Below, in pieces: positions 467 through 45,411 of a DNA stretch of 57,837 nucleotides. The DNA comes from a virus, in the IMG/VR virus record IMGVR_UViG_3300042923_000257, positions 1 to 57,837 of that record, one strand, 5' to 3'. Position numbers and translations under genes: made by a program. The notes below the pieces were generated by a model. It searched no databases and was not told the DNA's origin. It saw nothing but the letters and a program-made list of their open reading frames with translations. How positions within the stretch are numbered: the stretch's first letter is position 1; every line of letters begins with the position of its first letter.

Positions 467-479
467 GTTGAATCGAGAC
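467..479 (+). promoter_or_regulatory. 13-bp operator-like site GTTGAATCGAGAC
   Basis: Exact consensus copy in forward orientation. TTGAAT could act as a -35 box with TCTAAT at 492-497 (18-base spacer). An imperfect hairpin containing GGGTGTGCC and GGCACCC follows. Confidence 0.65.
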
Positions 480-724
480 TGCCAACCGTGCTCTAATAGG
501 GGTGTGCCCGGAGGAACGGCACCCGACAGGGGGCCTAGTACGAAGGCAGCACTCGTTCCACAGTCAACTGAACAGCGTGCTAAGCAAAGCAAGATCCTAT
601 AGGCGAGTAAGAGCCGGCTAGTAGGAAGAATGACGCGCCGTATACCGCGATAGTCCCTAGGGAGCTACGGGAGCTTTGATCTAGGGGTTTCAAAATGGGG
701 CAACCTGGCAGACACAGTCTGTCG

Positions 725-747
725 CATGTCGAGAAGGTGTCGACATG
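725..747. promoter_or_regulatory. Perfect inverted repeat CATGTCGA/TCGACATG
   Basis: Arms at 725-732 and 740-747 flank a 7-base centre; a second small inverted repeat (ATGGCG/CGCCAT) overlaps its right end. It has the look of a dimeric protein-binding site in a gene-free stretch. Its role is unknown. Confidence 0.4.
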
Positions 748-933
748 GCGAACACCCGCCATCGCCTAACAGATCTTGCTCATACCCTAAGCGTCAGAAC
801 ATTCCCCGCGGCCCCTAAGGGGGCCGACATGAGAGGGTAGGGCCTACTAGCCGGCCCTAGTCCACAATGAAGGCTAGATGCACCACACAAGAGGGATGAC
901 GGCCCTAGGGTTGTAAACCTCAGTAGGTATGCA

Positions 934-990
934 GTAAGAGGGTAGCCGGTCCGCATCATGCCGGCCCGGGTGCCCACTTACCGTCGCCTA
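934..990 (+). other. Repeated RNA stem-loop, copy 1
   Basis: GTAAG (934-938) and GGGTAGCCGG (940-949) can pair with CTTAC (977-981) and CCGGGTGCCC (966-975), leaving one internal mismatch. The element ends CTTACCGTCGCCTA. A second copy at 1134-1195 keeps the same pairings while the loop differs, which argues for an RNA element flanking the 42-residue gene at 1005. Confidence 0.5.
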
Positions 991-1004
991 CAACAGGAGG
1001 AATC

Positions 1005-1133
1005 ATGGAAGACAACACGGCTGAATGGGCACAGTCTCCCCTCACTGAATGGGAGCGTGACCTTCTGGCACTGGACATGTCGGACGTCCCTGTGAGGGAC
1101 ACTACGGCAGACGAGAACATTGCAGCACAGTAG
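1005..1133 (+). CDS. Hypothetical 42-residue protein
   Basis: The ATG at 1005 follows a clean ribosome site (AGGAGG at 995-1000). The product is acidic, 42 residues long, contains two EW pairs (residues 7-8 and 15-16) and ends at a TAG at 1131. It is too short for family recognition. The gene is bracketed by two copies of the same stem-loop element, so it may be a mobile-like or independently controlled unit. Function unknown. Confidence 0.6.
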   Translation: MEDNTAEWAQSPLTEWERDLLALDMSDVPVRDTTADENIAAQ

Positions 1134-1195
1134 GTAAGCGGTATCGGGTAGCCGGCCCACCCCGAGTGGTCCGGATGCCCTCTTACTGTCGCCTA
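1134..1195 (+). other. Repeated RNA stem-loop, copy 2
   Basis: GTAAG (1134-1138) pairs with CTTAC (1182-1186) and GGGTAGCCGG (1146-1155) with CCGGATGCCC (1171-1180), with the same internal mismatch as copy 1. The 3' end matches CTTACYGTCGCCTA. It lies directly before the operator-like site at 1197. Confidence 0.5.
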
Positions 1196-1196
1196 G

Positions 1197-1209
1197 GTTG
1201 AATCGAGAC
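1197..1209 (+). promoter_or_regulatory. 13-bp operator-like site GTTGAATCGAGAC
   Basis: Exact consensus copy. It ends only five bases before the ATG at 1215, so it cannot be the -35 box for that start. A roadblock or repressor-type role fits better here. Confidence 0.65.
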
Positions 1210-1214
1210 ACACA

Positions 1215-1493
1215 ATGCCCATTTGGATCACAGCCGTAGTCATGGCACTGGTCTACATCTCCGGAGTTCAGGCACTGAGCATGCCGGCCCGGAACATCAC
1301 GGAGCATCACTCTCAGGACAGCATCACGGATGCGGCTGAATGGGACGCATTCCACGCTGAGGCTTATGAGGAGTACGCCGCAGAGTTCACCGCACTCTAC
1401 AACGGATACGAGACCCGGTGGAGTAAGAACAACCGGCTCATGATCCGTAACGGGGACAGTGGTCCGTATAAGTTCGTCAAGCGTGCAGCCTGA
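1215..1493 (+). CDS. Hypothetical protein with N-terminal membrane segment
   Basis: A 92-residue product. Residues 1-22 are hydrophobic (ITAVVMALVYISG) and could be a signal anchor; the rest is acidic and tyrosine-rich. No ribosome site precedes the ATG because the 13-bp site occupies that place, so a leaderless start or the internal ATG at 1281 are alternatives. No family was recognised. Confidence 0.55.
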   Translation: MPIWITAVVMALVYISGVQALSMPARNITEHHSQDSITDAAEWDAFHAEAYEEYAAEFTALYNGYETRWSKNNRLMIRNGDSGPYKFVKRAA

Positions 1494-1506
1494 GGAGGAG
1501 AAAGCA

Positions 1507-1668
1507 ATGAGTGACGTCTACTGTTTTGAGGACGGACAACTCGTATACGGCAGGATCATTGCTACTGGTGGCCGACGAGGTGACCTTTACACCATTCAGT
1601 GGGATGACGGAATGCAGACGGATGAATGGAGCGACACTGAGGGCTCCTACTGGTGGTGGGCCGAGTGA
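1507..1668 (+). CDS. Small hypothetical protein (SH3/tudor-like)
   Basis: A 53-residue product. The ATG at 1507 is preceded by GGAGGAG at 1493-1499, which favours it over earlier in-frame codons. The pattern of aromatics and glycines (YGRIIATGGRRGD, then YTIQWDDG and YWWW) resembles a small beta-barrel of SH3 or tudor type, but this is only a resemblance. Its stop overlaps the GTG of the next gene. Confidence 0.6.
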   Translation: MSDVYCFEDGQLVYGRIIATGGRRGDLYTIQWDDGMQTDEWSDTEGSYWWWAE

Positions 1669-1847
1669 ACGCGGAATTCATTGCATGGTTGGTCGGGACG
1701 GACGTCAGTGACGTAGTGGCCTACCGGGACGTAGCCGACTGGCCCACACATTGGGCCGCTAAGGCACAGCACCACATGCGGGCCCTTGGTATCGGGAGTG
1801 AGCACGAAGCACTTTCGGTGTTCCGCTCCCGTTACTACTACGGCTGA
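1665..1847 (+). CDS. Hypothetical protein
   Basis: A 60-residue product. The GTG at 1665 overlaps the upstream stop (GTGA), the common coupling in this genome, and is preferred to GTG codons at 1653 and 1656. Its aromatic-rich C-terminus ends YYYG. It is followed by an operator-like site and a hairpin. No family was recognised. Confidence 0.55.
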   Translation: MNAEFIAWLVGTDVSDVVAYRDVADWPTHWAAKAQHHMRALGIGSEHEALSVFRSRYYYG

Positions 1848-1861
1848 CGCATACCCGCATA

Positions 1862-1874
1862 GTTGAATCGAGAC
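1862..1874 (+). promoter_or_regulatory. 13-bp operator-like site GTTGAATCGAGAC
   Basis: Exact consensus copy between genes. No -10 box lies at 16-18 bases; instead a perfect hairpin starts three bases downstream. Confidence 0.65.
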
Positions 1875-1876
1875 TA

Positions 1877-1897
1877 GGCCCCTGGATTCCAGGGGCC
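1877..1897 (+). terminator. Hairpin after operator-like site
   Basis: Perfect 9-bp stem GGCCCCTGG/CCAGGGGCC with a 3-base loop and no U tract. It sits between the 13-bp site and the ribosome site of the next gene, so it may be an attenuator or a transcript-stabilising 5' stem rather than a simple terminator. Confidence 0.5.
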
Positions 1898-1910
1898 GGC
1901 AGGAGCAAGC

Positions 1911-2231
1911 ATGAACGTGACACAGGTATTCGCAGAATTCTGGGCACTCTACTCCGGTAAGCGGGAAGTCCTGGGGCATGCACTCATTTCCCATGATCCG
2001 TATGACCAATTTGCCTGGTGCCAAGGGTGGCGTTTCGCTATTGCGGGTTACCTCACCTTCCAAAAGGGTGAGTCCGTTCCCGACTTCCGTCCGGCCCCTA
2101 GTGGTCCGGAAGACACGTATGAGTATGAGGAACTCCTGCACATCCGGCCGGATACTGACGCACTTTGGTACGCGTTCAACGTTCTGAGCCGGTACCGCGA
2201 ATGGCTCCGCATTGCAGGAAAGGACTACTGA
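1911..2231 (+). CDS. Hypothetical protein
   Basis: A 106-residue soluble protein preceded by AGGAG (1901-1905) and starting ATG. It is rich in aromatic residues (FWALY, FAWCQGWRF, WYAF) and lacks a signal or membrane segment. It is the first gene of a run that continues with overlapping starts to 2393. No family was recognised. Confidence 0.65.
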   Translation: MNVTQVFAEFWALYSGKREVLGHALISHDPYDQFAWCQGWRFAIAGYLTFQKGESVPDFRPAPSGPEDTYEYEELLHIRPDTDALWYAFNVLSRYREWLRIAGKDY

Positions 2232-2393
2232 GTGAACGAACGCATGCTCGGAGTGTGTGGCATGGCCGGTACGGGTTGTTCACCAAAGTGCCGGCGTACC
2301 CACAAGCCTAAGCCTAAGAGGAGCAAGAGGGCCCAGCGCTCTTACGAAAAGGGCAAGTGGCGTAAGTCCATCAGTAAGTACCTGAGCCGTTAG
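2232..2393 (+). CDS. Small basic Cys-containing protein
   Basis: A 53-residue, strongly basic product. The GTG at 2232 directly follows the stop of the preceding gene. An N-terminal CGMAGTGCSPKC cluster precedes a Lys/Arg-rich tail, suggesting a nucleic-acid-binding or metal-binding peptide. This is inference from composition only. Confidence 0.55.
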   Translation: MNERMLGVCGMAGTGCSPKCRRTHKPKPKRSKRAQRSYEKGKWRKSISKYLSR

Positions 2394-2404
2394 GAGAGTG
2401 CATC

Positions 2405-2590: not shown

Positions 2591-2612
2591 TTCGGTCGGG
2601 CGAATGGAGGTG

Positions 2613-2634
2613 GACAGACCCTTAGGGGTCTGTC
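2613..2634 (+). terminator. Intergenic hairpin
   Basis: GACAGACCC and GGGTCTGTC form a perfect 9-bp stem with loop TTAG. No U run follows, so it could be a weak terminator or a processing or attenuation site. Confidence 0.5.
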
Positions 2635-2681
2635 TGCCGCATTGACCCTATCGGAACTAGCAGGAAGCAAGGGGTAAGGCA

Positions 2682-3785: not shown

Positions 3786-3798
3786 GTTCAATCGAGAC
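3786..3798 (+). promoter_or_regulatory. 13-bp operator-like site (variant GTTCAATCGAGAC)
   Basis: One mismatch to consensus at position 4, which would weaken any -35 function. It begins one base after the upstream stop codon. Confidence 0.55.
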
Positions 3799-4018: not shown

Positions 4019-4031
4019 GTTGAATCGAGAC
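4019..4031 (+). promoter_or_regulatory. 13-bp operator-like site GTTGAATCGAGAC
   Basis: Exact consensus copy in an intergenic gap, followed after three bases by a strong hairpin. No -10 box is visible. Confidence 0.65.
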
Positions 4032-9041: not shown

Positions 9042-9054
9042 GTCTCGTTTCAAC
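9042..9054 (-). promoter_or_regulatory. 13-bp operator-like site GTTGAAACGAGAC (leftward)
   Basis: Points leftward, as does transcription, five bases after the stop of the tail fibre gene and ahead of the lysis genes. No -10 box follows. Confidence 0.6.
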
Positions 9055-9059: not shown

Positions 9060-11717
9060 TCACGCGCCAAGGTTGTTGGTCGGGGTTGTTCCCGCACCTG
9101 CGTACTCCAGAACGCCAACAGCCAGAGTGCCCTTGGTGATCAGGATGTTTCCGGTGATCATGTTGGGGCCGGCATCTCCCATGGCCTCTTCCCGAATGAG
9201 AGACCTCGTCCGGCCATCAGTCGGAGACGAGGTCAGGGTGTTGCCCTGAATGTTGTTGTTCTTCGAGCCGTACTCCAGGTGGATACCGGAGACCTGCCCA
9301 TTCAGGGTGCCTACCTCACCAGGACTGAAGATGGTGCAAGCCGAGACGATGTTGCCAGTAGCCGCAATGAAGACGGAATCTCCAGCAGTGCCATCGAAGT
9401 TGCATCCAACAATCTTGGTAGCACTACAGTCCTGAAGACGAACACCCTTGGTGTTGTTCGTTGCCCCACCGACGAAGTTGCACGAGTCGATGAACTGCGT
9501 TCCCGCCCGGTCAAGGATGCAAGTAGCGGTCTCAAGCCCTGTACCTCCGGAGCCTCCGAGGAACTCGAAGTCACAGCCGATGATCTGGTTCTCATCGCTG
9601 CTGTTCATCTGGATTCCACGGCCAGGCCCAGGAGAGGTCATGGACTCATCGAAGAGGCATCCGATCACCCGGTTGTTGTGGCCGAAGGCAGCATTGTTCA
9701 TGCCCCCCAGGTACAGGGCATCATCCCGGCATGCGATGAAGTGGACGTTGTCGAACCGGCAAGCCACTGCACCGGCACCGTAGAGACCACCAGAGGTGCC
9801 CGCGGTGCCCTGCTCCAGGCAGTTGCCGTCAATGGTGAGATCCCGAACCGTGATCCTGGTGTCCTCACCGGTCATGCGGAAGATGTAGCAGTTGCTGGCA
9901 CCCTTGAGCTTGACCCGTGCACCCCAACCAGAGCCGATAAGGGCGTAACCCTCACCAGCAGGCAGGACAACAGGAGTTGAGACGAGGAAGGTGCCGGTGG
10001 GGAAGTAGACGGTCGTCTTGTCGGCAGCAGCTTGGTTCACTGCGGCCTGGATAGCCGCGGTGTCGTCAGAGAGGCCGTCTCCTCGTGCACCGAAAGCCTT
10101 GACGTTGTGCCAGCCAAGGGCAGCATCTGAGGCGTCGATGACAACTCGGTCTTCGGCGTAATTGTTACCGGCCACTGTGGTGATCATGCCCAGGGTAACT
10201 CGGTTGTTGTTGCCTTCGTCGTACAGCCCCGCAGTCAGGCCGTGGAGGTAGGCGTTGTCGATCTGCACGTCCCGAGCACCGCCGATGCGGATGCCGTACT
10301 GGGGAGAGGTGTTGGCTGTACCACCATCGTCCGTGCCCACGTAGCAGGTGACCCCGTTGACGACCACAGGAGACTGATTGCCGAGCTTCAGGCCGGCGTA
10401 GCCACCACCACCAGGACCACCGTTACGGCCGTCTCTCCGGGTCATCAGAGCGTTGATGAGGATGGCACCGTTACCGGTGCTGTCCACCCGGACACCGTCC
10501 CAGGCGTTGCGGTCAGTCGAGCAATTGGACAGGGTCATGGAGCCCGAGCCGGGCCAGTTGCCCCAAGCTCCAGTGATGTGGAAGCCAAACTCACCGTTCC
10601 ACTCGGCCCGGCACTTCTCCACGATGGTGTTGGCACAGTTGACCAACTTGAAGCCACTGAACTTGGAGCCGATGACCTGGCAGTCCTCAAGGGTGAGGTC
10701 AGTGTTCCTCTCGAAGATCATGCCTGCGCCCTTGACGTTGTCCACCATCACGGAGTGGAGGCGCCAGGAGTACGGCCAATCACCGGCAGCGTTGGGGGCG
10801 GAAGTGATGCCGTCGTGGGAGACCTTGCGGATACAGACGTCCCGCATGACAACGTTCTGAACGTTGCCCTTGGCATAGATACCGTCAACGATCGGGCCGG
10901 TAGCCTTCGATCCGTCAAGCATCAGGTTGTAGAGGCGCTGTTCGCCGTTGATGGCAGGGTGAACTCCGTCGTTCTCCCCGACAATCCGGATCATAGCCCC
11001 TCCAGTGAAGGAGGGGAGGGCCTGGATATAGCAAGGGAAGTCGTTGTCCGTCATCCCAGGACCGACCATCAAGTTCGAGTGAGATCCCTGAAGGGTGATG
11101 CCCCGAGGAAGGTCAAGGGGCTGGGAGGTGCGGTACACGCCCTTGGGTAGGTGGACCACTCCACCGATGCCGGCTGCGTTGATCGCAGTCTGAAGAGCCG
11201 TGGTGTCATCTGCTATGCCATCACCAACGGCGCTGTAGGGAGCATCCTGCACGTTGATCCATACGGAGGAGCCCCCTCCTCCACCTCCACCAGATCCGGT
11301 GGGGAGTTGGGCCGTAGGAACCTTCCCGAACTCGTCCAGAGTGGCAATGCCGTTAGCGGCACCCTTCTGGGCGTTGACCTCCTCCAGGGCGTCAGCCTTG
11401 GAACCGTGGGGGTCTTCCGCTTCGATGTGTGCTGCGAAGTCGGTAGCGAGGTTGACCGGGGTCATGGCCACTCGGCCGGCTCCGAAGTCTGCGTAGAGCA
11501 GGGTGACACCGTCAGGGCCGTAGAAGTGCTGCACCATGCCCTGGGTGTCAGACACGAGGGAAGTGATGGGGTTACCAGACGCGTCCTGGAGGTCAAGTAT
11601 TTGAGCAGCCCCAACCGTAGGACCGTCGTAAACGGTGCCTACGGCGTCAGGGACTCGCACGCCTTCAACGTCCTCAGCAACATCAGCGGCTGAACCACCA
11701 AACAGATTTCTAGCCAT
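9060..11717 (-). CDS. Tail fibre/tailspike with two pectate-lyase-type beta-helix domains
   Basis: An 885-residue product starting ATG after GGAGGAA. Residues 1-130 look like a virion-attachment region ending in a Gly-rich linker (SGGGGGGGSS). Two domains begin with the pectate_lyase_3 signature: GDGIADDTTALQTAI near 165 and GARGDGLSDDTAAIQAAV near 545. Each is followed by beta-helix repeats rich in Asn (NCANT, SNCSTDRNAWDG, NNRVIGC). Such proteins bind and often degrade surface polysaccharide. The tandem pair suggests duplication or a two-specificity spike. Confidence 0.75.
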   Translation of the reverse strand: MARNLFGGSAADVAEDVEGVRVPDAVGTVYDGPTVGAAQILDLQDASGNPITSLVSDTQGMVQHFYGPDGVTLLYADFGAGRVAMTPVNLATDFAAHIEAEDPHGSKADALEEVNAQKGAANGIATLDEFGKVPTAQLPTGSGGGGGGGSSVWINVQDAPYSAVGDGIADDTTALQTAINAAGIGGVVHLPKGVYRTSQPLDLPRGITLQGSHSNLMVGPGMTDNDFPCYIQALPSFTGGAMIRIVGENDGVHPAINGEQRLYNLMLDGSKATGPIVDGIYAKGNVQNVVMRDVCIRKVSHDGITSAPNAAGDWPYSWRLHSVMVDNVKGAGMIFERNTDLTLEDCQVIGSKFSGFKLVNCANTIVEKCRAEWNGEFGFHITGAWGNWPGSGSMTLSNCSTDRNAWDGVRVDSTGNGAILINALMTRRDGRNGGPGGGGYAGLKLGNQSPVVVNGVTCYVGTDDGGTANTSPQYGIRIGGARDVQIDNAYLHGLTAGLYDEGNNNRVTLGMITTVAGNNYAEDRVVIDASDAALGWHNVKAFGARGDGLSDDTAAIQAAVNQAAADKTTVYFPTGTFLVSTPVVLPAGEGYALIGSGWGARVKLKGASNCYIFRMTGEDTRITVRDLTIDGNCLEQGTAGTSGGLYGAGAVACRFDNVHFIACRDDALYLGGMNNAAFGHNNRVIGCLFDESMTSPGPGRGIQMNSSDENQIIGCDFEFLGGSGGTGLETATCILDRAGTQFIDSCNFVGGATNNTKGVRLQDCSATKIVGCNFDGTAGDSVFIAATGNIVSACTIFSPGEVGTLNGQVSGIHLEYGSKNNNIQGNTLTSSPTDGRTRSLIREEAMGDAGPNMITGNILITKGTLAVGVLEYAGAGTTPTNNLGA

Positions 11718-14190: not shown

Positions 14191-15180
14191 TCAGTAGCCC
14201 TCGTATCTCGGCTGGAATATCAGCCGTACCTTGGCTCCCGTAGCACCAGGAAGAATGTCGACGGTGCACGTTGAATCGCCTTCGGGGAGTGACCAGAGCT
14301 GAGGGTTGGCATCAAGGTCCGGCCAGTAGTTCGTTCCTTGGTCGTCCTTCAAGGACTTGTATCCGGGTCTCGTATCAACTGTGAGAGTACGGCCTGCGGG
14401 GACAACGTCAGAGCCGTCTCCAGGAGGAGTGACCCCGAAGGACTGCCCCTCAGGACTGACGAAGGTGAAGCCCTTGATGGGCCCTTCCAGCTCCCACCGC
14501 GGCCACGCTTCGACGTCTCCCGGATTGGAGACGTCGACTGAAGAGCCCGACACCATCCCTGCGTTCAGGCGCAGGGGATAGAACGCCTCGGTCGTGGAGA
14601 AGAACGCCTGCCCGCCACCGAACTCCCACTGAGCCACCTGGACATCGTCCGAGTAGAAGTAGGGGTCGTAGGCGACGAGTTGGATCCCGAACTTCTTCCA
14701 GGTGAAGCCGGACTGGTCCTGAGCCTCACTGCCCTCCATGCCGCTCTTGTAGTAGCACTTGAGGTAGCGGGGGACTCCGTCCCCTTCCACGAACTTCAGT
14801 ACACAGAACCCCTTCTTGGGGTTCAGGGATGTCACAAGCTTCTTTTGCAGAGCCTTCACGGTCTGTCTGTCAATGCCGTGTAGGTAGATCGGGAGCATGA
14901 CTTCCCGGGCAACTGCCCGAGCATCCCGGAAGATCCCCCCATCAAGATTGGGGCTGTCATCCGAGTGCAGTTCGAACGGAGGTGCATCCAACCCCGTAGC
15001 GCCGGGCATCATGAAGATGCCCGGCCACTTCGAGTTAGAGAAGTCAGTGAGGGGGATTTCCTCCCCCTCACCGTTCTTCCCTCGGATGGATACGTATGTC
15101 CGTCCCCAATGCACCGGCTGAGGGGGCTGGGGCCCTGTGGGCGTAGGCGTGATAACCCGCCTTAGCACCGGAATAGGCAT
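14191..15180 (-). CDS. Distal tail (Dit-like) protein
   Basis: A 329-residue product. A Pro-rich N-terminus is followed by a segment (LPIYLHGIDRQTVKALQKKL, GFCVLKF, FGIQLVAYDPYFYSD) characteristic of siphovirus tail-component/Dit proteins, and a beta-rich C-terminal half. Dit links the tail tube to the tip complex and starts adsorption-device assembly. It directly follows the tape measure gene, the conserved place for this protein. Confidence 0.75.
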   Translation of the reverse strand: MPIPVLRRVITPTPTGPQPPQPVHWGRTYVSIRGKNGEGEEIPLTDFSNSKWPGIFMMPGATGLDAPPFELHSDDSPNLDGGIFRDARAVAREVMLPIYLHGIDRQTVKALQKKLVTSLNPKKGFCVLKFVEGDGVPRYLKCYYKSGMEGSEAQDQSGFTWKKFGIQLVAYDPYFYSDDVQVAQWEFGGGQAFFSTTEAFYPLRLNAGMVSGSSVDVSNPGDVEAWPRWELEGPIKGFTFVSPEGQSFGVTPPGDGSDVVPAGRTLTVDTRPGYKSLKDDQGTNYWPDLDANPQLWSLPEGDSTCTVDILPGATGAKVRLIFQPRYEGY

Positions 15181-20575: not shown

Positions 20576-20588
20576 GTCTCGTTTCAAC
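20576..20588 (-). promoter_or_regulatory. 13-bp operator-like site GTTGAAACGAGAC (leftward)
   Basis: Identical to the copy at 9042 and oriented with late transcription. It sits seven bases after the major tail protein stop, followed by a hairpin. Confidence 0.6.
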
Positions 20589-24692: not shown

Positions 24693-26141
24693 TTACTTCT
24701 TCTCTCCAAGCTTCCGGGAGACGTTCCCGGAGTTGCCCTGAGGTGGCTTGGCTGCCATTTCGGCTGCCTTCTTGCCTCCCGCGGGGCCACCAGGCTCCTG
24801 AGCCTGGGGCCCAAGTTCCTGGACTTCCTTCGCTGCCTTGGCATCTTCCTTACGAAGCTCACGGAAGGCTGCTATCTCGGTAGCGGTGAAGCCGGCTCGC
24901 ATCCACAAGATTTCCTCGGGTACGTTGAGCTGCTTCAGCTTCAGCAAAGAGTCAATGTGCTGGGCCTCGGTCCGGTATTCCGGATCTGCCCAGACCGTTT
25001 CCATGGAGTACTCCTTCGCTCGCTTGTCCTTCTTGACAGCGAAGCAAAGCCGGATTACCTGCTCCCAGGCTTCTCCGAAGTACAACATTCGCTCCTTGAC
25101 CTTGGAGACAAGGCCGGCCTCGGCACTGATGATTGCCTCACCAGAAGGAGCGGTTCCCTGGTTCACCAGGAAGTAGTGACTCGGAGTACGAGACACAGAA
25201 CTGAGGTGCTGCACCAGGAGGTTGATCAGGTTCACATAGTTCTTCAGGTCCGCGGCCTGGAACTGACCGAATTCCACTTCCGGGTTCTCGGCCTGGAGGA
25301 GCTTGTCCAATCCCACGTCATACGGCATCTTGAGATTGCCGTTCTCATCCTCTTGGATTTCCAGACCGGTGACCCATCGCTGCGGCCAGGCAGCGAACTC
25401 GGAAGCCAGAAGGGCATCAGACGTAATCTTGTTGATGGCATCCTGGATTGGGATGACATTGGCAAGGTCTGAGTAGGGGTCACCATTGATTCGAGACCTG
25501 TTGTGGAACGGAACTACAGGCACGATCCCAAGAGGGTTGGGCTTACGCTGACCCTGCTCCCACTCGGTCTTCCCAAGGGGGACCTCGTAGACGTAATCCT
25601 CAGTCCAGAGAGTTACCCAGGTACGACCCCAGGAGTCCATGAAGAACCGTGCCGCGGCCTCCAGCTCCGTGCTGGAGCCGGGCTTGTACTGGACTGCCAT
25701 CTCCTCAGCGGAGACGGGGGTGATGACTGGCTCCCCGTCCTTGCCACCCCACACAACGACGTACGCGCGTCCCTGGACCATCGCGTCCAGGTGCACGGCG
25801 TTGGACAGAGCATCGAGCTGGTTACGCTGCCAGAACTTCTGAGCGTCCTCGTCCATCTTCCCCTTGCCGGGGAATCGGAAGCCCTCCACACGCATTCGCT
25901 CTGTAGCAGAGTCGATGATGAGCCCACAGAAGTTGTCTCTCCAGTCGTTGAAGAGATCCTTGAAGGCGGACTTGTATCGGGCCTGGGCAAACTTGAGCTT
26001 CTGCTGTTCGCCCTCGTAGTAGCTCGCGTACTTGAGGAAGTCAGCCCGGCCATTGGTGAGCTTCCCCTGAAGGAATGCCAACCAGTCAGTCTCGGTAGCC
26101 GGCGGACCAACGGAGGTATAGCCGCTGGGAGGGATAATCAT
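24693..26141 (-). CDS. Portal protein (SPP1 gp6-like)
   Basis: A 482-residue product. Features of SPP1-type portals include YYEGEQQKLKFAQARYK near the N-terminus, FCGLIIDSATERMRVEGFRF, the central IPIQDAINKITSDALLASEF stem/clip region and SVSRTPSHYFL. The C-terminal 40 residues are Ala/Lys/Gly-rich. It forms the dodecameric DNA gate and directly follows the large terminase. Confidence 0.85.
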   Translation of the reverse strand: MIIPPSGYTSVGPPATETDWLAFLQGKLTNGRADFLKYASYYEGEQQKLKFAQARYKSAFKDLFNDWRDNFCGLIIDSATERMRVEGFRFPGKGKMDEDAQKFWQRNQLDALSNAVHLDAMVQGRAYVVVWGGKDGEPVITPVSAEEMAVQYKPGSSTELEAAARFFMDSWGRTWVTLWTEDYVYEVPLGKTEWEQGQRKPNPLGIVPVVPFHNRSRINGDPYSDLANVIPIQDAINKITSDALLASEFAAWPQRWVTGLEIQEDENGNLKMPYDVGLDKLLQAENPEVEFGQFQAADLKNYVNLINLLVQHLSSVSRTPSHYFLVNQGTAPSGEAIISAEAGLVSKVKERMLYFGEAWEQVIRLCFAVKKDKRAKEYSMETVWADPEYRTEAQHIDSLLKLKQLNVPEEILWMRAGFTATEIAAFRELRKEDAKAAKEVQELGPQAQEPGGPAGGKKAAEMAAKPPQGNSGNVSRKLGEKK

Positions 26142-28860: not shown

Positions 28861-29362
28861 CGGCTTCCATTTCCTTGAGCAGCTTCCAGAGGTCCCCGGG
28901 TGTGTAGTCACCCGGGAAGGTGTCAGGCCCGAACAGCTCGACGCCGGCACGGCGGTACGCCTCCACGACGAGCTGACTACAAATCAGATGGCCCGAGTCC
29001 CGCACGCGGTCTCGAATCAACCTCGAAGGCACGCCAAGGCGCTTCAGGGCGATCGACAGGTAGTCCAGGAAGGAGTACGGGGTACCAACTAGATCAAGGG
29101 CTTGCCACATGACCTCTTCCTGTTCCTCTTCCGTCAGAGGAACAAGTCCCGTGGACCACTTGACCACGGGCGAGGCGTCCTCCAGGCGGATCAGCTCGGC
29201 CCCGGAGGGCATGGCCTGAACGACCATGCCGTCACCCACGTAGACGAGAGCGTGTTGGACGGGAGCGAAGTCCCCAACGAACCATTGCCCGAAGGTGATG
29301 AAGGCGCCGGCCAGTCCCTTGATCTTGGTCAGGCCGAAGTCGCCTAGCTTGGGTTCGGTCAT
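28844..29362 (-). CDS. Papain-like (NlpC/P60, YiiX-type) hydrolase
   Basis: A 172-residue product. VQHALVYVGDGMVVQA carries a His followed by a strand, and GHLICSQLVVEAYRRAG carries the candidate nucleophilic Cys; His before Cys is the circularly permuted order of YiiX/DUF830-like enzymes. The TPYSFLDYLSIAL stretch is typical of the substrate groove. Substrates in this group are peptidoglycan peptides, amides or lipids. Its place at the head of the late operon, away from the lysis genes, suggests a non-lytic role. Confidence 0.65.
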   Translation of the reverse strand: MTEPKLGDFGLTKIKGLAGAFITFGQWFVGDFAPVQHALVYVGDGMVVQAMPSGAELIRLEDASPVVKWSTGLVPLTEEEQEEVMWQALDLVGTPYSFLDYLSIALKRLGVPSRLIRDRVRDSGHLICSQLVVEAYRRAGVELFGPDTFPGDYTPGDLWKLLKEMEADARVR

Positions 29363-29736: not shown

Positions 29737-29862
29737 GAGTCTCCTAGTCGGGTTCAGGGCACTGAGACCGGTGGCAACCGTGTCTCCAACAGAAGTTCGG
29801 ATCTCTCATCTCTTCTTCTGTAGCCACGCCAACCCCCCGTTGGATGAATGAAGTTGTGTCAG

Positions 29863-29942
29863 TGCGCCGCCTTGGAATCGAACCAAGCAAGCCTCAATTG
29901 GCCAGGGCTTTACAGGCCCCGTTGTGTCCCAGCACTCAACGC
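29863..29942 (-). tRNA. tRNA-Tyr(GUA)-like gene, D arm degenerate
   Basis: On the minus strand an anticodon arm (GGGGC, loop CTGTAAA, GCCCT) reads GUA; a T arm (CTTGG, loop TTCGATT, CCAAG) is perfect; a 16-base variable arm with GCC/GGC fits class II. The acceptor pairs six of seven positions (GCGTTGA with GCGGCGC). The D arm is short (15 bases to the anticodon stem) and weakly paired, and no CCA is encoded. It is either an atypical phage tRNA or a decaying one. Confidence 0.55.
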
Positions 29943-30100
29943 AAGACCTCGTCCACAAGGAACGAGGTGTGTTTCAAAAGCCCATCAGGGCCAACCGCCT
30001 CACGACGGGATGTCGGATGCCACGGGGGCTGCAATAGCTCTCTCCTGCATCCTCTGTGCTCTTCTCCCGAGGCAGCCTCAGGTGCCTGAAGCACAGCCGT

Positions 30101-30418: not shown

Positions 30419-30494
30419 GCGTGGTTCCACCTCCAAGAAGTCTTCGGCCCAGGCTGGTTACTGATCTGGCAGCCTGGGCCAACTACCCCCTTGG

Positions 30495-30507
30495 ATCTCG
30501 AATCAAC
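30495..30507 (-). promoter_or_regulatory. 13-bp operator-like site GTTGATTCGAGAT (leftward)
   Basis: One change from consensus at the last base. It lies between the stem-loop array and the HNH gene, pointing into the late operon. Confidence 0.6.
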
Positions 30508-30523
30508 TAACCTGGAACTAAAA

Positions 30524-30723
30524 AGCCGTCCTCCAAGGGACGGCTACTTACTCAACAGGGAGATCAACAAGAAGGAAACTTATCGGGATCCTCTTTAAGG
30601 AGGATCCCTCTGTAGTACTTACCTTGTCGGGGCTCCTTAAGAGCCCCTCTATGTTTTATCTCTTATCTTCAGTCTAGCATGGTCTTCCAAACTGAGTCAA
30701 CTCGGTTCTTCAAGGAACCGAGT
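30524..30723. other. Array of four perfect stem-loops with similar loops
   Basis: Stems: AGCCGTCC/GGACGGCT (30524-30545, loop TCCAAG), GGGATCCTC/GAGGATCCC (30585-30608, loop TTTAAG), GGGGCTC/GAGCCCC (30629-30647, loop CTTAA) and ACTCGGTTC/GAACCGAGT (30700-30723, loop TTCAAG). All stems differ but the loops share YYYAAG. The first is followed on the minus strand by TTTTT, so it can terminate leftward transcripts; the third is followed on the plus strand by TCTATGTTTT. Confidence 0.7.
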
Positions 30724-30754
30724 AACTAGTAAGTATTTTCTTTTCTCTCTTCAC

Positions 30755-30820
30755 TATAGACGTCGGTGTCACTAGCCCAGGGTTTGTGACACAGGATGTT
30801 GAAGTGAGACCCACATCACA
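30755..30820. repeat. Duplicated control element, copy A
   Basis: Core TATAGACGTCGGTGTCA (30755-30771) differs by one base from 57507-57523; similarity continues loosely through TTTG.GACA to ..ATCACA. GTGTCAC and GTGACAC form an inverted repeat within it. Confidence 0.55.
30798..30810 (+). promoter_or_regulatory. Operator-like site variant GTTGAAGTGAGAC
   Basis: Two or three changes from consensus in the centre; part of a 20-base repeat shared with 30961. First of four sites upstream of the HTH gene at 31097. Confidence 0.5.
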
Positions 30821-30891
30821 GCCAAGGAAGGTGAGAGTTAGGTTAAGTGCGTTGGCCAAAGGTTACCGGCTGGTCTACGGTGACCAGCAAC

Positions 30892-30904
30892 GTTGCTTCG
30901 AGAC
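30892..30904 (+). promoter_or_regulatory. Operator-like site variant GTTGCTTCGAGAC
   Basis: One change from GTTGATTCGAGAC. Nested in an inverted repeat ACGTTGC/GCAACGT. Confidence 0.55.
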
Positions 30905-30959
30905 CCGAACGCAACGTGTGGGGCCTAAGGGGTAACTGAACAGGAACGCAAGACTCCGT

Positions 30960-30972
30960 ATTGAAGTGAGAC
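30960..30972 (+). promoter_or_regulatory. Operator-like site variant ATTGAAGTGAGAC
   Basis: Second copy of the 20-base repeat that begins at 30799; 12 bases before the next site. Confidence 0.45.
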
Positions 30973-30983
30973 ACACGTCACAT

Positions 30984-30996
30984 GTTGAAACGAGAG
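30984..30996 (+). promoter_or_regulatory. Operator-like site variant GTTGAAACGAGAG
   Basis: One change from the GTTGAAACGAGAC form used in the late operon. It lies about 100 bases before the HTH gene. Confidence 0.5.
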
Positions 30997-31096
30997 ACTC
31001 TCAGAGCCGTTACTGACTATGGTGACCGAGTCACGAGGACTGCCGGCCTCGTGTCGAAAGGGCCACTGCATGTAACGCCGCCACGAAGGACATGAC

Positions 31097-31606
31097 ATGC
31101 CCACCAGCCTTCTTCCGCCTGATCATGAGCTTGCCAAGCTCTACCATCGTGACGTCTCGGACAGAGAGATCGCAGAGCGGTACGGAGTCACCGTTCAGGC
31201 CGTGAACAAGAGACTCTCTGCGATGGGCTTGTTCAGGAAGCCCATCTCCAAGCAGGTCAACGAGGCTCTCGCGGCACGGTGGACCATCTGGGCCCCGAAG
31301 GATGGGACCGGTCACCACAACCGGTACAGTGCCAAGGCTCTGAAGGTCTGGCTCCGGAGACAGCTCGGGGACGACACCCTGAGCAAGGCACAGTTGGACA
31401 TGGCTGACCGATGGGAGCGCCGGCTGAGGCGAGACAACCTCGTCCTCTGTTACGACCCCAACACGGAATCGGCGTGGTACTACCGGCCCCGGACACCCCA
31501 GGACGGGAAGCTGGTCATCGACTGGCCGAAGCACATCCCCTTCCCAAACGAGAGGTTTAAGAGGGCCCTGGAGCTGCCCGCGGAGGACGTGCGGCGGACG
31601 CTCTGA
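31097..31606 (+). CDS. HTH DNA-binding protein, candidate immunity repressor
   Basis: A 169-residue product. Residues about 18-42 (SDREIAERYGVTVQAVNKRL) form a clear helix-turn-helix; the rest (NEALAARWTIWAPKDGTGHH, then Trp/Arg-rich helices) is unlike sigma or recombinase families. It is the first rightward gene, downstream of four operator-like sites and followed by a strong terminator, so it is a one-gene unit that could autoregulate. A monomeric HTH repressor binding 13-bp asymmetric sites is the L5 gp71 model; size (169 against about 183) and context fit. Identity as repressor is inference. Confidence 0.6.
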   Translation: MPTSLLPPDHELAKLYHRDVSDREIAERYGVTVQAVNKRLSAMGLFRKPISKQVNEALAARWTIWAPKDGTGHHNRYSAKALKVWLRRQLGDDTLSKAQLDMADRWERRLRRDNLVLCYDPNTESAWYYRPRTPQDGKLVIDWPKHIPFPNERFKRALELPAEDVRRTL

Positions 31607-31623
31607 GATCCAAGACACAGCGA

Positions 31624-31649
31624 GACCCCCTGTGACCAGGGGGTCTTTT
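31624..31649 (+). terminator. Rho-independent terminator after the HTH gene
   Basis: GACCCCCT (31624-31631) and AGGGGGTC (31638-31645) form a stem with a 6-base loop, followed by TTTTGTTTT. Confidence 0.85.
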
Positions 31650-31703
31650 GTTTTGGTTAGGTAACCCTAATGGTTGTACTGGTGACTGTGTGGTCATGGT
31701 CAC

Positions 31704-31716
31704 GTTGATTCGAGAT
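31704..31716 (+). promoter_or_regulatory. 13-bp operator-like site GTTGATTCGAGAT
   Basis: One change from consensus at the last base, as in the leftward copy at 30495. It lies between the terminator of the HTH gene and the next gene. No good -10 box follows. Confidence 0.55.
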
Positions 31717-32207: not shown

Positions 32208-33044
32208 ATGAGCCGAGACATCACCACACAGCCGCGGTCTGTCTCCCAGACTGAGCAGTACGAGAAGTGCAGTTGGCAGTTCTATCTCCAGCGAGTTGAG
32301 CGGGTCGTCCCTCGGCCGGCCGCCTGGTCCTTCCAGGGCACGGCCTTCCACTCGGCCGCGGAGAAGTTCGAGAAGGAGTTCAGGGAGCCCACGGCAGAGG
32401 AGATGGTCCAGCTCTTCTCCGACCAGTACAGCGCCATGGTGAACAAGGCGATGGACCAGGAGCCGGATCTGAACCGGTGGATGACTGCCAACAAGAAGCC
32501 TGCCGGCCAGGACATCGAAGAGCGGTACGCCCTGGGGCAGAGTCAGGTAGCTCGGTATGTCGAGTGGTCCAACGAGAACGAACCTGAGATCTGGGTGGAT
32601 GGCGAGGGTTGGAACGGGGCGGACATCTCGGAGGCTCCGACCAACCCCAAGATGGGCCTGGAGCTGTACTTCAAGGTCGAGTTGGGAGGCGTGGTCGTCC
32701 GTGGCTACATTGATCAGCTTCCGTACGACGGAGGCCCTGGAACCGTGAGGGTTCGGGACCTGAAGACCGGAAGCACCAAGTCCGAGTTCCAGCTTCAGAC
32801 GTACAAAGTCGCCGTGGAGAAGCAGTTCGGTCTCACGGTCAACCGAGGGGACTGGTACTTCGGCAAGACTGGGGGCCTGTCCAAGGCTGTCGACCTCTCC
32901 GAGGTGACGGAGGAACAGGTAGCAGCTCGGTATGTGGAGATGGACCAGGGCGTGAAGCGGGGAGACTTCCCGGCGAAGCCGGGCTTCCACTGCAATTTCT
33001 GTGACGTGAGCCACGCTTGCACTTTCAAGCGGACTCGTAGTTGA
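32208..33044 (+). CDS. Cas4/RecB-like PD-(D/E)XK exonuclease with Fe-S cysteines
   Basis: A 278-residue product; the ATG at 32208 follows CAGGAGG. SVSQTEQYEKCSWQFYL holds the first cluster cysteine; residues about 180-210 (VVRGYIDQL, then VRVRDLKTG) are the PD-(D/E)XK core with D, D and K; the C-terminus (HCNFCDVSHAC) supplies the other cysteines. This four-cysteine arrangement is that of Cas4/AddB-type nucleases. In phages it probably processes DNA ends for recombination-dependent replication. There is no CRISPR array nearby. Confidence 0.8.
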   Translation: MSRDITTQPRSVSQTEQYEKCSWQFYLQRVERVVPRPAAWSFQGTAFHSAAEKFEKEFREPTAEEMVQLFSDQYSAMVNKAMDQEPDLNRWMTANKKPAGQDIEERYALGQSQVARYVEWSNENEPEIWVDGEGWNGADISEAPTNPKMGLELYFKVELGGVVVRGYIDQLPYDGGPGTVRVRDLKTGSTKSEFQLQTYKVAVEKQFGLTVNRGDWYFGKTGGLSKAVDLSEVTEEQVAARYVEMDQGVKRGDFPAKPGFHCNFCDVSHACTFKRTRS

Positions 33045-33069
33045 ATCGAGACAGGAAGTCTGTCATACT
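33040..33069 (+). promoter_or_regulatory. Promoter with embedded 13-bp site (twin of 44795)
   Basis: GTTGAATCGAGAC at 33040-33052 supplies TTGAAT; after exactly 17 bases comes CATACT (33064-33069). The stretch TCATACTGGAAGTAGG is identical at 44818-44833, so the two promoters are clearly related. The site overlaps the stop codon of the nuclease gene, and a hairpin follows at 33084. Confidence 0.7.
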
Positions 33070-34818: not shown

Positions 34819-34848
34819 GTTGATTCGAGACGCTGAGTCGTGTAGGGT
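34819..34848 (+). promoter_or_regulatory. Promoter with embedded 13-bp site
   Basis: GTTGATTCGAGAC (34819-34831) supplies TTGATT; 17 bases later is TAGGGT (34843-34848). It would drive the gene at 34878, with CTCTC/GAGAG able to form a small leader hairpin. Confidence 0.6.
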
Positions 34849-36380: not shown

Positions 36381-36411
36381 GTTGATTCGAGACCTACACA
36401 GGGTGCACACT
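36381..36411 (+). promoter_or_regulatory. Promoter with embedded 13-bp site
   Basis: GTTGATTCGAGAC (36381-36393) gives TTGATT; CACACT (36406-36411) follows after 18 bases, and the downstream ACTGGA matches the twin promoters at 33040 and 44795. The predicted start of transcription falls at or next to the ATG at 36418, implying a leaderless or very short-leader mRNA. Confidence 0.6.
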
Positions 36412-36417: not shown

Positions 36418-36717
36418 ATGAAGACGAACAAGCGCACGAACCCCACAGGCTTCGGAATCCAGAGAGACATCACGGATGACGGAGCGGTCCTCTACCTCAG
36501 GATCACGAACCCCCGCCGGCTGAACACCAAGTCCCTCGGAGAGGTTCTCGTCCGCTACCTTCAAGGTGGATTCGAGACACTGATTCTCGATCAGGGTCCC
36601 TTCAAGCGACAGAAGATGAAGCTCGTTGAGTTCCTTGGCCGGCTCCAGGCCAGTTTCAACGAAGGACAGCTTCTTTTTTTCGAGCGTAAGTTGAATCGAG
36701 ACCGTGTCTCGTTCTAA
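36418..36717 (+). CDS. Hypothetical protein
   Basis: A 99-residue basic product; the ATG at 36418 is the first codon after the promoter and is preferred to an in-frame codon at 36370 that lies upstream of the promoter. The body (VLYLRITNPRRLNTKSLGEV, FKRQKMKLVEFLGRL) is alpha/beta. A 13-bp site lies within its last codons. No family was recognised. Confidence 0.6.
   Translation: MKTNKRTNPTGFGIQRDITDDGAVLYLRITNPRRLNTKSLGEVLVRYLQGGFETLILDQGPFKRQKMKLVEFLGRLQASFNEGQLLFFERKLNRDRVSF
36690..36702 (+). promoter_or_regulatory. 13-bp operator-like site GTTGAATCGAGAC
   Basis: Exact consensus, within the 3' end of one gene and one base before the GTG of the endonuclease VII gene. It cannot be a -35 box for that start. 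Confidence 0.6.
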
Positions 36718-42609: not shown

Positions 42610-44774
42610 CGGAGTTTCGTACTGATACGGCCAGGCAGGTCTTTCTTCGCACCTACAGCCGGACGAAGCCGAACGGCGCACAGGAATCGTGGGAAGAAAC
42701 TGTGTCTCGGGTTGTCGACGGCAACCTGAAGCTCGTTGACTCCCGGTACATCGAAGAGGGTGAGCGTGAAGACCTCATGGACCTGATCGGCAGCATGAAG
42801 GTGCTGCCGGCTGGTCGTCATCTGAAGTCGAGCGGGGTCAACAACTTTGCTCTGAACAATTGTTGGGCGGCCGGCTGGGATCCGGCCCGTCCTGAGGAGC
42901 ACTTCACCTTCACCCTCCTCCGCCTGGCCGAAGGCGGGGGAGTGGGCTCGAACTACTCGGCTCGGTTCTTCGAGGACTTCCCCGCGGTGCAGGTGCCGGT
43001 GAACGTCCACATCGTCTGTGACCCGGAGCATCCTGACTATCTGGACATGGTTGAGGCTGGTCTCATCTCGACTGAGTACAGCCACGATTGGGCCGGCGCG
43101 TATGCGGTGGAGGACTCACGAGAGGGCTGGGCTGAGGCCCTCGGGGATTTGATCCGTACGGCTCATGACCCGAAGACCCGGCACACTCAGCGGGTGTACG
43201 ACGTCTCTCGTGTCCGTTGCAAGGGCAGCCCACTGAAGACCTTCGGGGGTACTGCTTCAGGCCCTGAGCCCTTCGCAGAGATGATGTGGGAGGCCGGGCA
43301 GCTCCTGACTAAGGTCTTCTATCGCGATGGAATCGTTGATCCTGTCGGTACTGAGCACATCAATGGGCTTGACGCCATGCGGATTGACCATGCCATCGCC
43401 AAGGCGATCGTTGCTGGTGGTGTCCGTCGATCTGCTCGCATGTCGATCATGCGTTGGGATGACCCACTCATCTTCGAGTTCATCAACATCAAGGCTGAGG
43501 GAGGTCACTGGACCACCAACATCTCTGTTGAGGTGGACAACGCCTTCTTTGCTGCCTTGTACGAGGAGCCTGACACTCAAGTAGTCCAGGTGTTCGTAGA
43601 CTCTGAGGGGCGCTATGTCCAGGATGACGATGGAAGTAATCCCGGCTTCCTGGGCCTTTCGCTCAGTGAGGTGCGTCGTCCCGTGGCTAAGGGCGCTAAG
43701 GCTGCTCTTCAGGCGAAGAACGTCCTTTGTGCCATCGCTGAAGGCATGCTCCGGAACGGGGAGCCTGGTGTCTGGAACTCGGCTCTCACTGCGGAAGGGG
43801 AGGTGGACGGCACCTTCACCACCAACCCGTGTGGTGAGGCAACGCTGACTCCCTGGGAGCCGTGCAACCTGGGATCGGTCAACCTCGCTGCGTTCGCTGG
43901 CCATGATGGCAGCGTGGACTCAGCCGGCATCCGAAAGGCTCACCGTCTCCTCACTCGGTACCTGATCCGGGCGACGTTTGCTGACGTCGCTGACCCCAAG
44001 TCGGCCGAGGCGATTGCTCGTTACCGTCGTATTGGTGTGGGGCACCTCGGCTTCGCTGACTACCTCTACAAGCAGGGGATCCGCTACACGGAGGCTGATG
44101 GGGTCTACCCGGGCCGTGCTCTTCGTGGCTGGGCTCAGGTCGTGGACGAGGCAGCAGCCGAGTACGCGAACGAGCTGCGTATCCCGGTTCCGATCAAGAA
44201 GCGGGTGATTGCTCCGACTGGCACCATCAGCAAGTTGGCCGGCGTCTCTGGTGAGGCGACGCATGCTCCCTTCGCTGACTACTTCATCCGCAGGATTCGG
44301 TTCTCCACCGTGGACCCGAACGAGGTTGCTCAGGTGGAGGAGTACAAGCGCAAGGGGTACCGAACGGAGCCCTGCCAGTACGCAGACAACACCGTAGTGG
44401 TGGAGATCCCGACCAAGGATGCCCTTCTTGACGAGCTGGAGTTCCCGGAGTACTTCCAGCACGCTGGGGAGCTGACCATTCGGGACATGCTGAACGTTCA
44501 GCGGGTCTATCAGAAGTACTGGGCTGACCAGGCCGTGTCTTACACGGTCAACGTCGATCCGGAGAAGTACACCGCGGAGGAACTGGCCGGCGTCCTGGCT
44601 GAGTACCTCCCGGAGCTGAAGGGGACAACCGTGTTCCCGGAGATGTCCATGCCTCAGTCTCCCTACGAGCGCATCTCCTTCGAGGAGTACAAGGCTCGGG
44701 CTGCTGAGGTCGGCATTGAGGTCACTGACACCGGCTTCGATGAGGCATGCGCTTCAGGCGCATGCCCCGTGTGA
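42606..44774 (+). CDS. Adenosylcobalamin-dependent ribonucleotide reductase (class II)
   Basis: A 722-residue product of the monomeric ribonucleoside-triphosphate reductase type. NNCWAAGWD near residue 80 gives the first redox Cys, NPCGEATL near 405 the radical-site Cys and Glu, IAPTGTISKLAGVSGE near 535 the phosphate-binding loop, and CASGACPV at the end the shuttle cysteine pair. It makes deoxynucleotides for replication; B12 is normally supplied by a Streptomyces host. With ThyX and dCMP deaminase it forms a dNTP supply module. Confidence 0.9.
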   Translation: MTEFRTDTARQVFLRTYSRTKPNGAQESWEETVSRVVDGNLKLVDSRYIEEGEREDLMDLIGSMKVLPAGRHLKSSGVNNFALNNCWAAGWDPARPEEHFTFTLLRLAEGGGVGSNYSARFFEDFPAVQVPVNVHIVCDPEHPDYLDMVEAGLISTEYSHDWAGAYAVEDSREGWAEALGDLIRTAHDPKTRHTQRVYDVSRVRCKGSPLKTFGGTASGPEPFAEMMWEAGQLLTKVFYRDGIVDPVGTEHINGLDAMRIDHAIAKAIVAGGVRRSARMSIMRWDDPLIFEFINIKAEGGHWTTNISVEVDNAFFAALYEEPDTQVVQVFVDSEGRYVQDDDGSNPGFLGLSLSEVRRPVAKGAKAALQAKNVLCAIAEGMLRNGEPGVWNSALTAEGEVDGTFTTNPCGEATLTPWEPCNLGSVNLAAFAGHDGSVDSAGIRKAHRLLTRYLIRATFADVADPKSAEAIARYRRIGVGHLGFADYLYKQGIRYTEADGVYPGRALRGWAQVVDEAAAEYANELRIPVPIKKRVIAPTGTISKLAGVSGEATHAPFADYFIRRIRFSTVDPNEVAQVEEYKRKGYRTEPCQYADNTVVVEIPTKDALLDELEFPEYFQHAGELTIRDMLNVQRVYQKYWADQAVSYTVNVDPEKYTAEELAGVLAEYLPELKGTTVFPEMSMPQSPYERISFEEYKARAAEVGIEVTDTGFDEACASGACPV

Positions 44775-44794
44775 CCCACAGCACTGCACTCTAG

Positions 44795-44824
44795 GTTGAA
44801 TCGAGACCACATGTTCGTCATACT
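44795..44824 (+). promoter_or_regulatory. Promoter with embedded 13-bp site (twin of 33040)
   Basis: GTTGAATCGAGAC (44795-44807) gives TTGAAT; 17 bases later is CATACT (44819-44824). TCATACTGGAAGTAGG is shared with the promoter at 33040. Predicted transcription starts about 11 bases before the GTG at 44842, just ahead of its AGGAGG. Confidence 0.7.
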
Positions 44825-44841
44825 GGAAGTAGGAGGTAAGC

Positions 44842-45366
44842 GTGACTGACTTTGACCCCACCGACCCCTGGGGACAGAAGAGCCCCTGGGATGTTGCCCA
44901 GCCTGAGCCCCAGACTGCACCGGAGGTGCCTGTGACCAACCCGTCTGCTGCTGTTGTTGCCCCTAACCCCTTCAAGATTGGCCTGACCCTCAAGGCAGGC
45001 GCCGGCTATGACGCTGAGTGGATCACCCCGACCATCTACGGCGCCTCTGCTGACGAGGTTGCTTCCCGCACGGTGGAGCTGATCAACGCCCTGAAGCAGC
45101 ACGGTGTGATTGAGCTGACCGCTAAGGCCGCGGAGTTCACTCGGGGCCAGGCTGGTGCAGGCAAGCCGGCCGCCCCCGCGGCCAAGCCGACCTTCCAGAA
45201 TGGCCAGGTGCAGTACGGCAACCAGCCGGCTGCCTCGTCCGGTAGCTCGGACCGACCGGACAACGTCCCGGCCCACTTCACCTACAAGGAGGGGACCAAG
45301 AATGGGAAGACCTGGAAGGGTTGGTTCCCGCCCCGAGGTTCCAGTGAGGCCCCGATCTGGGTCTAA
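44842..45366 (+). CDS. Possible single-stranded DNA-binding or replication accessory protein
   Basis: A 174-residue product, GTG start with AGGAGG (44831-44836). A Pro-rich N-terminal region, a core (FKIGLTLKAGAGYDAEWITP and following) and an Ala/Pro linker lead to a conserved-looking tail (HFTYKEGTKNGKTWKGWFPP). The domain layout recalls annotated ssDNA-binding proteins of actinophages, but no OB-fold motif is certain. It has its own promoter and is followed by another promoter-terminator pair, so it is expressed alone and perhaps highly. Confidence 0.5.
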   Translation: MTDFDPTDPWGQKSPWDVAQPEPQTAPEVPVTNPSAAVVAPNPFKIGLTLKAGAGYDAEWITPTIYGASADEVASRTVELINALKQHGVIELTAKAAEFTRGQAGAGKPAAPAAKPTFQNGQVQYGNQPAASSGSSDRPDNVPAHFTYKEGTKNGKTWKGWFPPRGSSEAPIWV

Positions 45367-45381
45367 TTTCTTGCTCAGATA

Positions 45382-45411
45382 GTTGATTCGAGACTGGAAC
45401 TCCTCTAGTCT
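45382..45411 (+). promoter_or_regulatory. Promoter with embedded 13-bp site
   Basis: GTTGATTCGAGAC (45382-45394) gives TTGATT; TAGTCT (45406-45411) follows after 17 bases. A terminator-like hairpin starts four bases downstream. Confidence 0.65.

Follow-up and report, generated by a model that had tools for sequence, protein, structure and literature searches.

Repressor–stoperator systems are established in the cluster A mycobacteriophages (PMC9283540, PMC6550527). The TipsytheTRex repressor binds its site as a monomer using a helix-turn-helix (HTH) and a Stoperator domain, with the HTH being the part that polymerase would reach first (PMC9283540). The invariant positions of the cluster A site are 1 and 9–13, G.......TCAAG (PMC3029335). 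Stoperators have also been reported, as consensus sites, for Rhodococcus cluster CA and Gordonia A15 phages (PMC13313380, PMC5559632), and R4-like Streptomyces phages are credited with a repressor–stoperator system (PMC10276819). Here, we analyze a 13-bp asymmetric site, GTTGAWTCGAGAC, that is dispersed over an entire 57.8-kb virus record of IMG/VR (IMGVR_UViG_3300042923_000257, 57,837 nucleotides; hereafter, the window), together with the protein encoded at 31097, its predicted repressor. The window very probably belongs to a temperate, Ibantik-related actinophage with a cluster-A-type repressor and operator–stoperator circuit. As there are precedents in cluster A, Gordonia, Rhodococcus and R4-like phages, this kind of system is already known. 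What is new is the matched switching of specificity, the repressor residues 63–72 that track the switch and a T-rich patch in front of the sites.

The nearest isolate relative of the window is Streptomyces phage Ibantik (NC_073462), which has a colinear genome. The nearest relative found is G001, a 55.6-kb contig that is 83% identical to the window in nucleotide sequence where the two align and that comes from the same metagenome as a further relative, L022. Streptomyces is the probable host, judged only from similarity of gene content.

When both strands are counted, the window contains 12 exact copies of GTTGAWTCGAGAC and 23 copies with at most one mismatch. An earlier note, made from the letters of this DNA alone, had listed about 21 copies, read them as an L5-like stoperator immunity system and called for a scan against shuffled controls and for a comparison of related phages. 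In 500 dinucleotide shuffles the exact motif never occurred, and copies with at most one mismatch averaged 0.14 with a maximum of 2. In addition, no more than 3 matches were obtained with any of 2000 column-permuted motifs. All 21 positions listed before carry the sequence attributed to them: 11 are exact, seven have one mismatch, 30798 and 30984 have two and 30960 has three. Overlooked were an exact site on the minus strand at 29009 and four one-mismatch sites at 14367, 25485, 36566 and 51307. Syntenic sites are conserved in G001. The site is asymmetric, as GTTGAATCGAGAC and its reverse complement, GTCTCGATTCAAC, are unlike at most positions. Dispersed palindromic repressor sites define the conserved inverted repeat (CIR) type of phiC31, and inverted-repeat character of this type was not found in the sites of the window.

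Placement was judged on a codon-based gene call that was amended by hand and is approximate, and the control region (30437–31096) was set aside in counting orientation. Outside this region, 20 of the 21 sites with at most one mismatch follow the local direction of transcription (p=1e-5), which bears out what had been claimed for them. The sole exception, 25485, is probably fortuitous because it lies within a coding sequence (CDS) and because its L022 counterpart retains the CGAGAC form and so departs from L022's own specificity; it was rejected as a functional site. Sixteen of the 23 sites lie between genes or overlap with a stop codon, where about 3.4 are expected (p=4e-9). This is a strong bias, although the description "nearly all between genes" went too far, as the sites at 36690, 39322 and 29009 are within CDS. 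These three are nevertheless kept as sites in relatives, where they change with the repressor, and therefore selection acts on the DNA itself. Sites situated after a stop codon and ahead of the next ribosome-binding site occur in the window and also in IronMan (A2) and Bxb1 (A1), the cluster A genomes used for comparison. GC-rich hairpins without a T-run are found directly downstream of the sites at 1862, 4019, 9042 and 20576.

The 31097 protein matches phrog_3929/357, families of phage transcriptional repressors in PHROG. When a profile of four relatives was compared with the Protein Data Bank there was one strong match, the TipsytheTRex repressor 7r6r (E-value 6e-6), and it spans nearly the whole length of the protein. 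Profile–profile comparison (hhalign) of the 31097 family with the repressor of IronMan, which is of the L5 clade, gave a probability of 97.8%, with the two repressors being approximately 24–28% identical. An AlphaFold2 model of moderate confidence (predicted local distance difference test score, 77; predicted template modelling score, 0.66) had a single significant match in Foldseek, again 7r6r (E-value 8e-6, probability 1.00, template modelling score 0.51). Closer by, Ibantik gp55, an "immunity repressor", is 56% identical to the 31097 protein. Using tblastn, the family reaches Ibantik gp55, Ponzi, Success, R4-like phages (Joe) and cluster A mycobacteriophages.

The sites themselves are also related to those of cluster A. 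A scan of the kind used for the window retrieved the consensuses of the L5 clade and of Bxb1. Written in the L5 convention, the window site is GTCTCGAWTCAAC, that of L5 is GGTGGMTGTCAAG and that of Bxb1 is GTTACGWDTCAAG; the window site closely resembles the Bxb1 consensus when the latter is reverse-complemented. It agrees with the cluster A invariant positions at 1 and 9–12 (five of six), whereas position 13 is C where G is invariant. The polarity is shared as well, as transcription reaches the TTGA end of the site first: in the rightward arm of IronMan, CTTGACANCCACC is found on the plus strand, and in its leftward arm it is nearly confined to the minus strand, while Bxb1 CTTGAHWCGTAAC has arm-matched strands in 12 of 13 and 17 of 17 cases. 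The window resembles cluster A (L5 gp71, Bxb1 gp69 and TipsytheTRex) in having a homologous two-domain repressor and a 13-bp asymmetric site with more than 20 dispersed copies in one orientation, mostly intergenic, whose TTGA half is fixed while the other half varies with specificity. It differs in its last base, in its Streptomyces phage backbone and in a much stronger T-rich patch before the sites. The earlier note had left the choice between an independently evolved and a divergent circuit. Because the protein as well as the site has homology to the cluster A system, independent evolution is rejected and "divergent" is the right word.

Other described systems are further removed. The Rhodococcus cluster CA and Gordonia A15 phages have an equivalent architecture in other actinobacterial hosts but other consensuses (TGTCTATTGTCAAG; GGGGATTGTCAAG). 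The R4-like (cluster BD) phages are Streptomyces phages with a related repressor C-terminal domain and dispersed, oriented sites; in contrast to the window, the site is different and the repressor is shorter, with little N-terminal similarity. The original description of the R4 stoperators is reportedly that of Smith in 2013. In Joe (NC_054674) and L014 there is a recurring, oriented 14-mer, GTGTGACAGTGTGA, which is probably the BD-cluster repressor site.

Within the Ibantik-like clade, sites and repressors differ together. G001 retains the window motif at most positions. Ibantik has about 13 sites and, instead of the window motif, GTTGWCACGAGAC occupies many of the equivalent positions (window/Ibantik pairs 467/55877, 33040/22460, 34819/21131, 36381/18598, 36690/18289 and 44795/11943), from which Ibantik is predicted to be of a different immunity group. 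L022 has GTTGAYAAGAGAK at syntenic places. The sites of L027 are of the Ibantik type and those of L028 and L029 of the L022 type, while L030 (GTTGCACTGAGAY) and L031 (GTTGAYATGCGAN) each have their own sequence at dispersed sites. This amounts to five specificities in one Streptomyces phage clade, with centres AWTC, WCAC, AYAA, CACT and AYAT-G. Each is applied consistently across the dispersed sites of its phage, and GTTG at the start of the site is fixed. More distant repressors go with L023 CTTGAATCCGTGA, Ponzi CTTGAAACTGTCA, L038 CTTGAAACTGYGA, L043 CTTGCGACTGTGA and Success GTTGCCTCCTGGG; the Ponzi and Success motifs come from intergenic DNA only, as de novo ranking over whole genomes (also for Joe) was swamped by coding repeats. 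The leftward promoter of G001 (25193–25205) reads GTTGACACGAGAC and has an Ibantik-type centre, whereas the other G001 sites are of the AWTC type.

A 10-residue window was used to scan the repressors for segments that separate the specificity groups, and residues 63–72 ranked first of 147, with an identity of 0.83 within groups and 0.20 between them. These residues align with TipsytheTRex K75–K81, a segment that contacts the centre of the site and in which K75, D78 and K79 contact bases. The covariation of repressor and site is strong circumstantial evidence, not proof, because it comes from a small sample whose members share some ancestry. It also bears on whether the sites might be targets of another phage or host DNA-binding protein, acting in partition, replication or packaging, with the repressor homology being coincidental. 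Although dispersed asymmetric sites are known in other systems, this is exceedingly unlikely: the segment that best tracks the switch aligns with the residues by which TipsytheTRex contacts DNA, the sites are placed and oriented like cluster A stoperators, and the genes identified include a serine integrase and not partition genes.

Four sites (33040, 34819, 36381 and 44795) provide TTGAWT followed by CATACT, TAGGGT or CACACT at 17–18 bp, and these −10-like hexamers are kept in relatives. These sites are predicted to be operators at promoters. Overall, −10 hexamers at 16–19 bp accompany 7 of 20 sites, where 2.6 would be expected (p=0.01). In G001, Ibantik, L022 and L031, the putative leftward promoter of the control region (TTGACA-N18-TATACT or TAGACT) includes a full site, while that of the window has a partial site only (GTTGACTCAGTTT, 30689–30701). 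Most other sites are without a −10 and are probable stoperators. Since several sites are also the predicted −35 of conserved promoters, "operator/stoperator" is a more exact term than "stoperator". A site that opens with TTGA and in several places has a conserved −10-like hexamer 17–18 bp on could also be a mere −35 element, used by a host sigma or a phage factor and marking early promoters. Such a pure promoter motif was rejected as very improbable, because approximately two-thirds of the sites have no −10, the nine bases past TTGA are nearly fixed, the sites at 29009, 36690 and 39322 are within CDS, and the whole set changes its centre together with the repressor, a pattern that would not be expected from a host sigma factor.

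The T-rich patch was studied in 101 sites from eight Ibantik-like phages. On the sense strand, T makes up 41–63% of positions −17 to −10 against a background of 21%, and drops back outside. Four or more T in seven are found at 36% of sites versus 2.9% expected; as many sites are syntenic copies and not independent, p-values for the patch overstate the evidence, and the distinct positions with a patch number about ten. In the Ibantik-like phages and a neighbouring clade, T5–T8 runs end 8–12 bp, and mostly exactly 9 bp, before 26 sites. The Ibantik genome has six T6+ runs, of which five sit there, upstream of sites, and a T-rich patch or T6–T8 run precedes the sites at 11277, 16350, 18289, 21131 and 53797. 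Bxb1 has the same patch (22% versus 1.4%), and IronMan and Joe have it weakly. In the literature searched, which left subscription papers largely uncovered, neither the Ibantik-like sites nor the T-rich patch were found to be described.

Several meanings of the patch were considered. An UP element is disfavoured, as the patch accompanies 21 of 66 sites without a −10 and 15 of 35 with one (p=0.28) and consists of T on the sense strand only. Classical hairpin terminators upstream of the T-tracts are present at 30495, L030 4542, L027 11988 and Ibantik 21131, but not at most sites. The hairpins and T-rich sequence nearby, together with fixed polarity and intergenic position, might be taken to mean that the sites act in the transcript, as antitermination or processing signals. 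We consider this scarcely credible: at operators the site is upstream of the predicted transcription start, its centre switches with a DNA-binding repressor, and no protein of the antitermination or processing kind was identified. The patch is located where the 3′ end of the RNA would be expected if polymerase stalled at the repressor, a geometry inferred from what is generally known of roadblocks. Stoperators of the Ibantik-like lineage, and less so of Bxb1, may then be composite elements of a T patch (often T6–T8, ending exactly 9 bp ahead of the site) and a site. Here, a polymerase halted by bound repressor would have its RNA 3′ end at the patch and, owing to the weak U-rich hybrid, the roadblock would lead to termination, and this would go some way to explaining the orientation dependence. 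That stoperators are composite in this way and, jointly, that there have been repeated joint switches of dispersed site sets and their repressors, with residues 63–72 reading the centre, is a tentative proposal, possible but somewhat doubtful as a whole.

Regarding the circuit as a cluster-A-type system, the 169-amino acid repressor would probably bind the 13-bp site as a monomer, the HTH taking the TTGA half and the Stoperator-type domain the CGAGAC half. At approximately a quarter of the sites (the four predicted operators), TTGA would be the promoter −35, so that binding would block initiation. At the other sites, between genes or at gene ends, bound repressor would probably block the elongating RNA polymerase. 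This block would silence the prophage and give superinfection immunity to phages sharing the site. The L5-like reading of the earlier note is well supported by repressor homology, by the length, polarity and placement of the sites, and by site–repressor covariation. Several points weigh against a circuit of this type. The essential TipsytheTRex residue R45 aligns with V33 here and some essential residues are not kept. The three weak sites nearest the repressor (30798, 30960 and 30984) are poor motif matches and are believable solely through their position upstream of its gene. The −10 enrichment is modest, the covariation comprises five specificity groups of which three are replicated and which share ancestry, and no convincing prophage relative was found in one scan of bacterial genome contigs.

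These results extend the L5/Bxb1 regulatory scheme to a Streptomyces phage clade, with sites predicted for each member, and yield, as a natural series, at least five repressor/site pairs that match each other and come from colinear genomes. With these pairs it can be tested how the bases of the site are assigned to the repressor residues that read them, and by what means a repressor bound to DNA halts an elongating RNA polymerase in one orientation only, with the T-rich patch being a concrete clue to the one-way block. The pairs also predict shared immunity among phages and could supply orthogonal transcription roadblocks for Streptomyces genetics.

Table 1. Sites and genes of the window, with their counterparts in relatives.
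Position	Strand	Feature	Relatives and context
467..479	+	Site GTTGAATCGAGAC	Kept in G001; in Ibantik with switched centre
1197..1209	+	Site, probable stoperator, intergenic	
1862..1874	+	Site, probable stoperator	GC-rich hairpin directly downstream
3786..3798	+	One-mismatch site	Between stop codon and next ribosome-binding site
4019..4031	+	Intergenic site	
9042..9054	-	Site GTTGAAACGAGAC	Structural-gene region; kept in G001
20576..20588	-	Site between structural genes	Kept in G001; major tail protein and assembly chaperone region by synteny with Ibantik
29009..29021	-	Site in CDS	Kept in G001; switched in L022 (GTTTATAAGAGAT)
30495..30507	-	Control-region site facing leftward genes	L022 and L029 counterpart GTTGATAAGAGAT
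30689..30701	-	Partial site GTTGACTCAGTTT with TAGACT at 18-bp spacing, predicted leftward promoter	
30798..30810	+	Weak site (two mismatches) 5′ of repressor	L022 counterpart GTTGAAGTGAGAT
30892..30904	+	Site GTTGCTTCGAGAC 5′ of repressor	Counterparts in G001 and Ibantik
30960..30972	+	Very weak site (three mismatches) 5′ of repressor, function uncertain	
30983..31096	+	Putative 37-amino acid leader open reading frame (from sequence)	Stop just before repressor start codon
30984..30996	+	Weak site overlapping start of leader open reading frame	L022 counterpart at 9865
31097..31606	+	Predicted immunity repressor, 169 amino acids	N-terminal HTH, C-terminal Stoperator-type domain
31704..31716	+	Site GTTGATTCGAGAT after repressor gene, 22 bp before TAYRTT-like hexamer	Kept and switched in every clade member read there
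33040..33052	+	Predicted operator, TTGAAT as −35, CATACT (33064-33069) at 17-bp spacing	Arrangement kept in G001, Ibantik, L022, L027, L029 and L031
33122..33134	+	Site GTTGAGTCGAGAC	GC-rich hairpin upstream, next gene downstream; switched in relatives
34819..34831	+	Predicted operator, TAGGGT at 17-bp spacing	Also in Ibantik
36381..36393	+	Predicted operator, CACACT at 18-bp spacing	Kept in G001 and Ibantik (CATGCT)
36690..36702	+	Site at CDS 3′ end, T7 at 9 bp upstream	Kept and switched in Ibantik, L022 and L027
39322..39334	+	Site in CDS	Switched in Ibantik, L022 and L027
44795..44807	+	Predicted operator, CATACT at 17-bp spacing	After ribonucleotide reductase gene
45382..45394	+	Site GTTGATTCGAGAC	T-rich sequence upstream; switched in Ibantik
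52569..54065	-	Large serine integrase	Pfam Resolvase, Recombinase, Zn_ribbon_recom

The surroundings of the repressor gene have further conserved features. An open reading frame overlapping the leader is kept in G001, and a small gene, gp56, is at the equivalent place in Ibantik. Directly after the repressor gene is a strong, intrinsic-terminator-like hairpin with a T-rich tail (31623–31656). This is immediately followed by a hyphenated palindrome, TTAGGTAACCCTAA, at 31657–31670, upstream of the 31704 site, that is recognisable before the equivalent site in Ibantik, L022, L030 and L031 and is perhaps the site of a second regulator at an early promoter.

The predicted serine integrase supports a temperate life style. 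Near it, at 55236–56093, is an HTH_31 and DUF5753 regulator, a kind that we take to be associated with Streptomyces chromosomes. There are two tRNA-Tyr (GTA) genes, at 29862–29947 and at 54659–54741, and the latter, just upstream of the integrase gene, could be related to attP.

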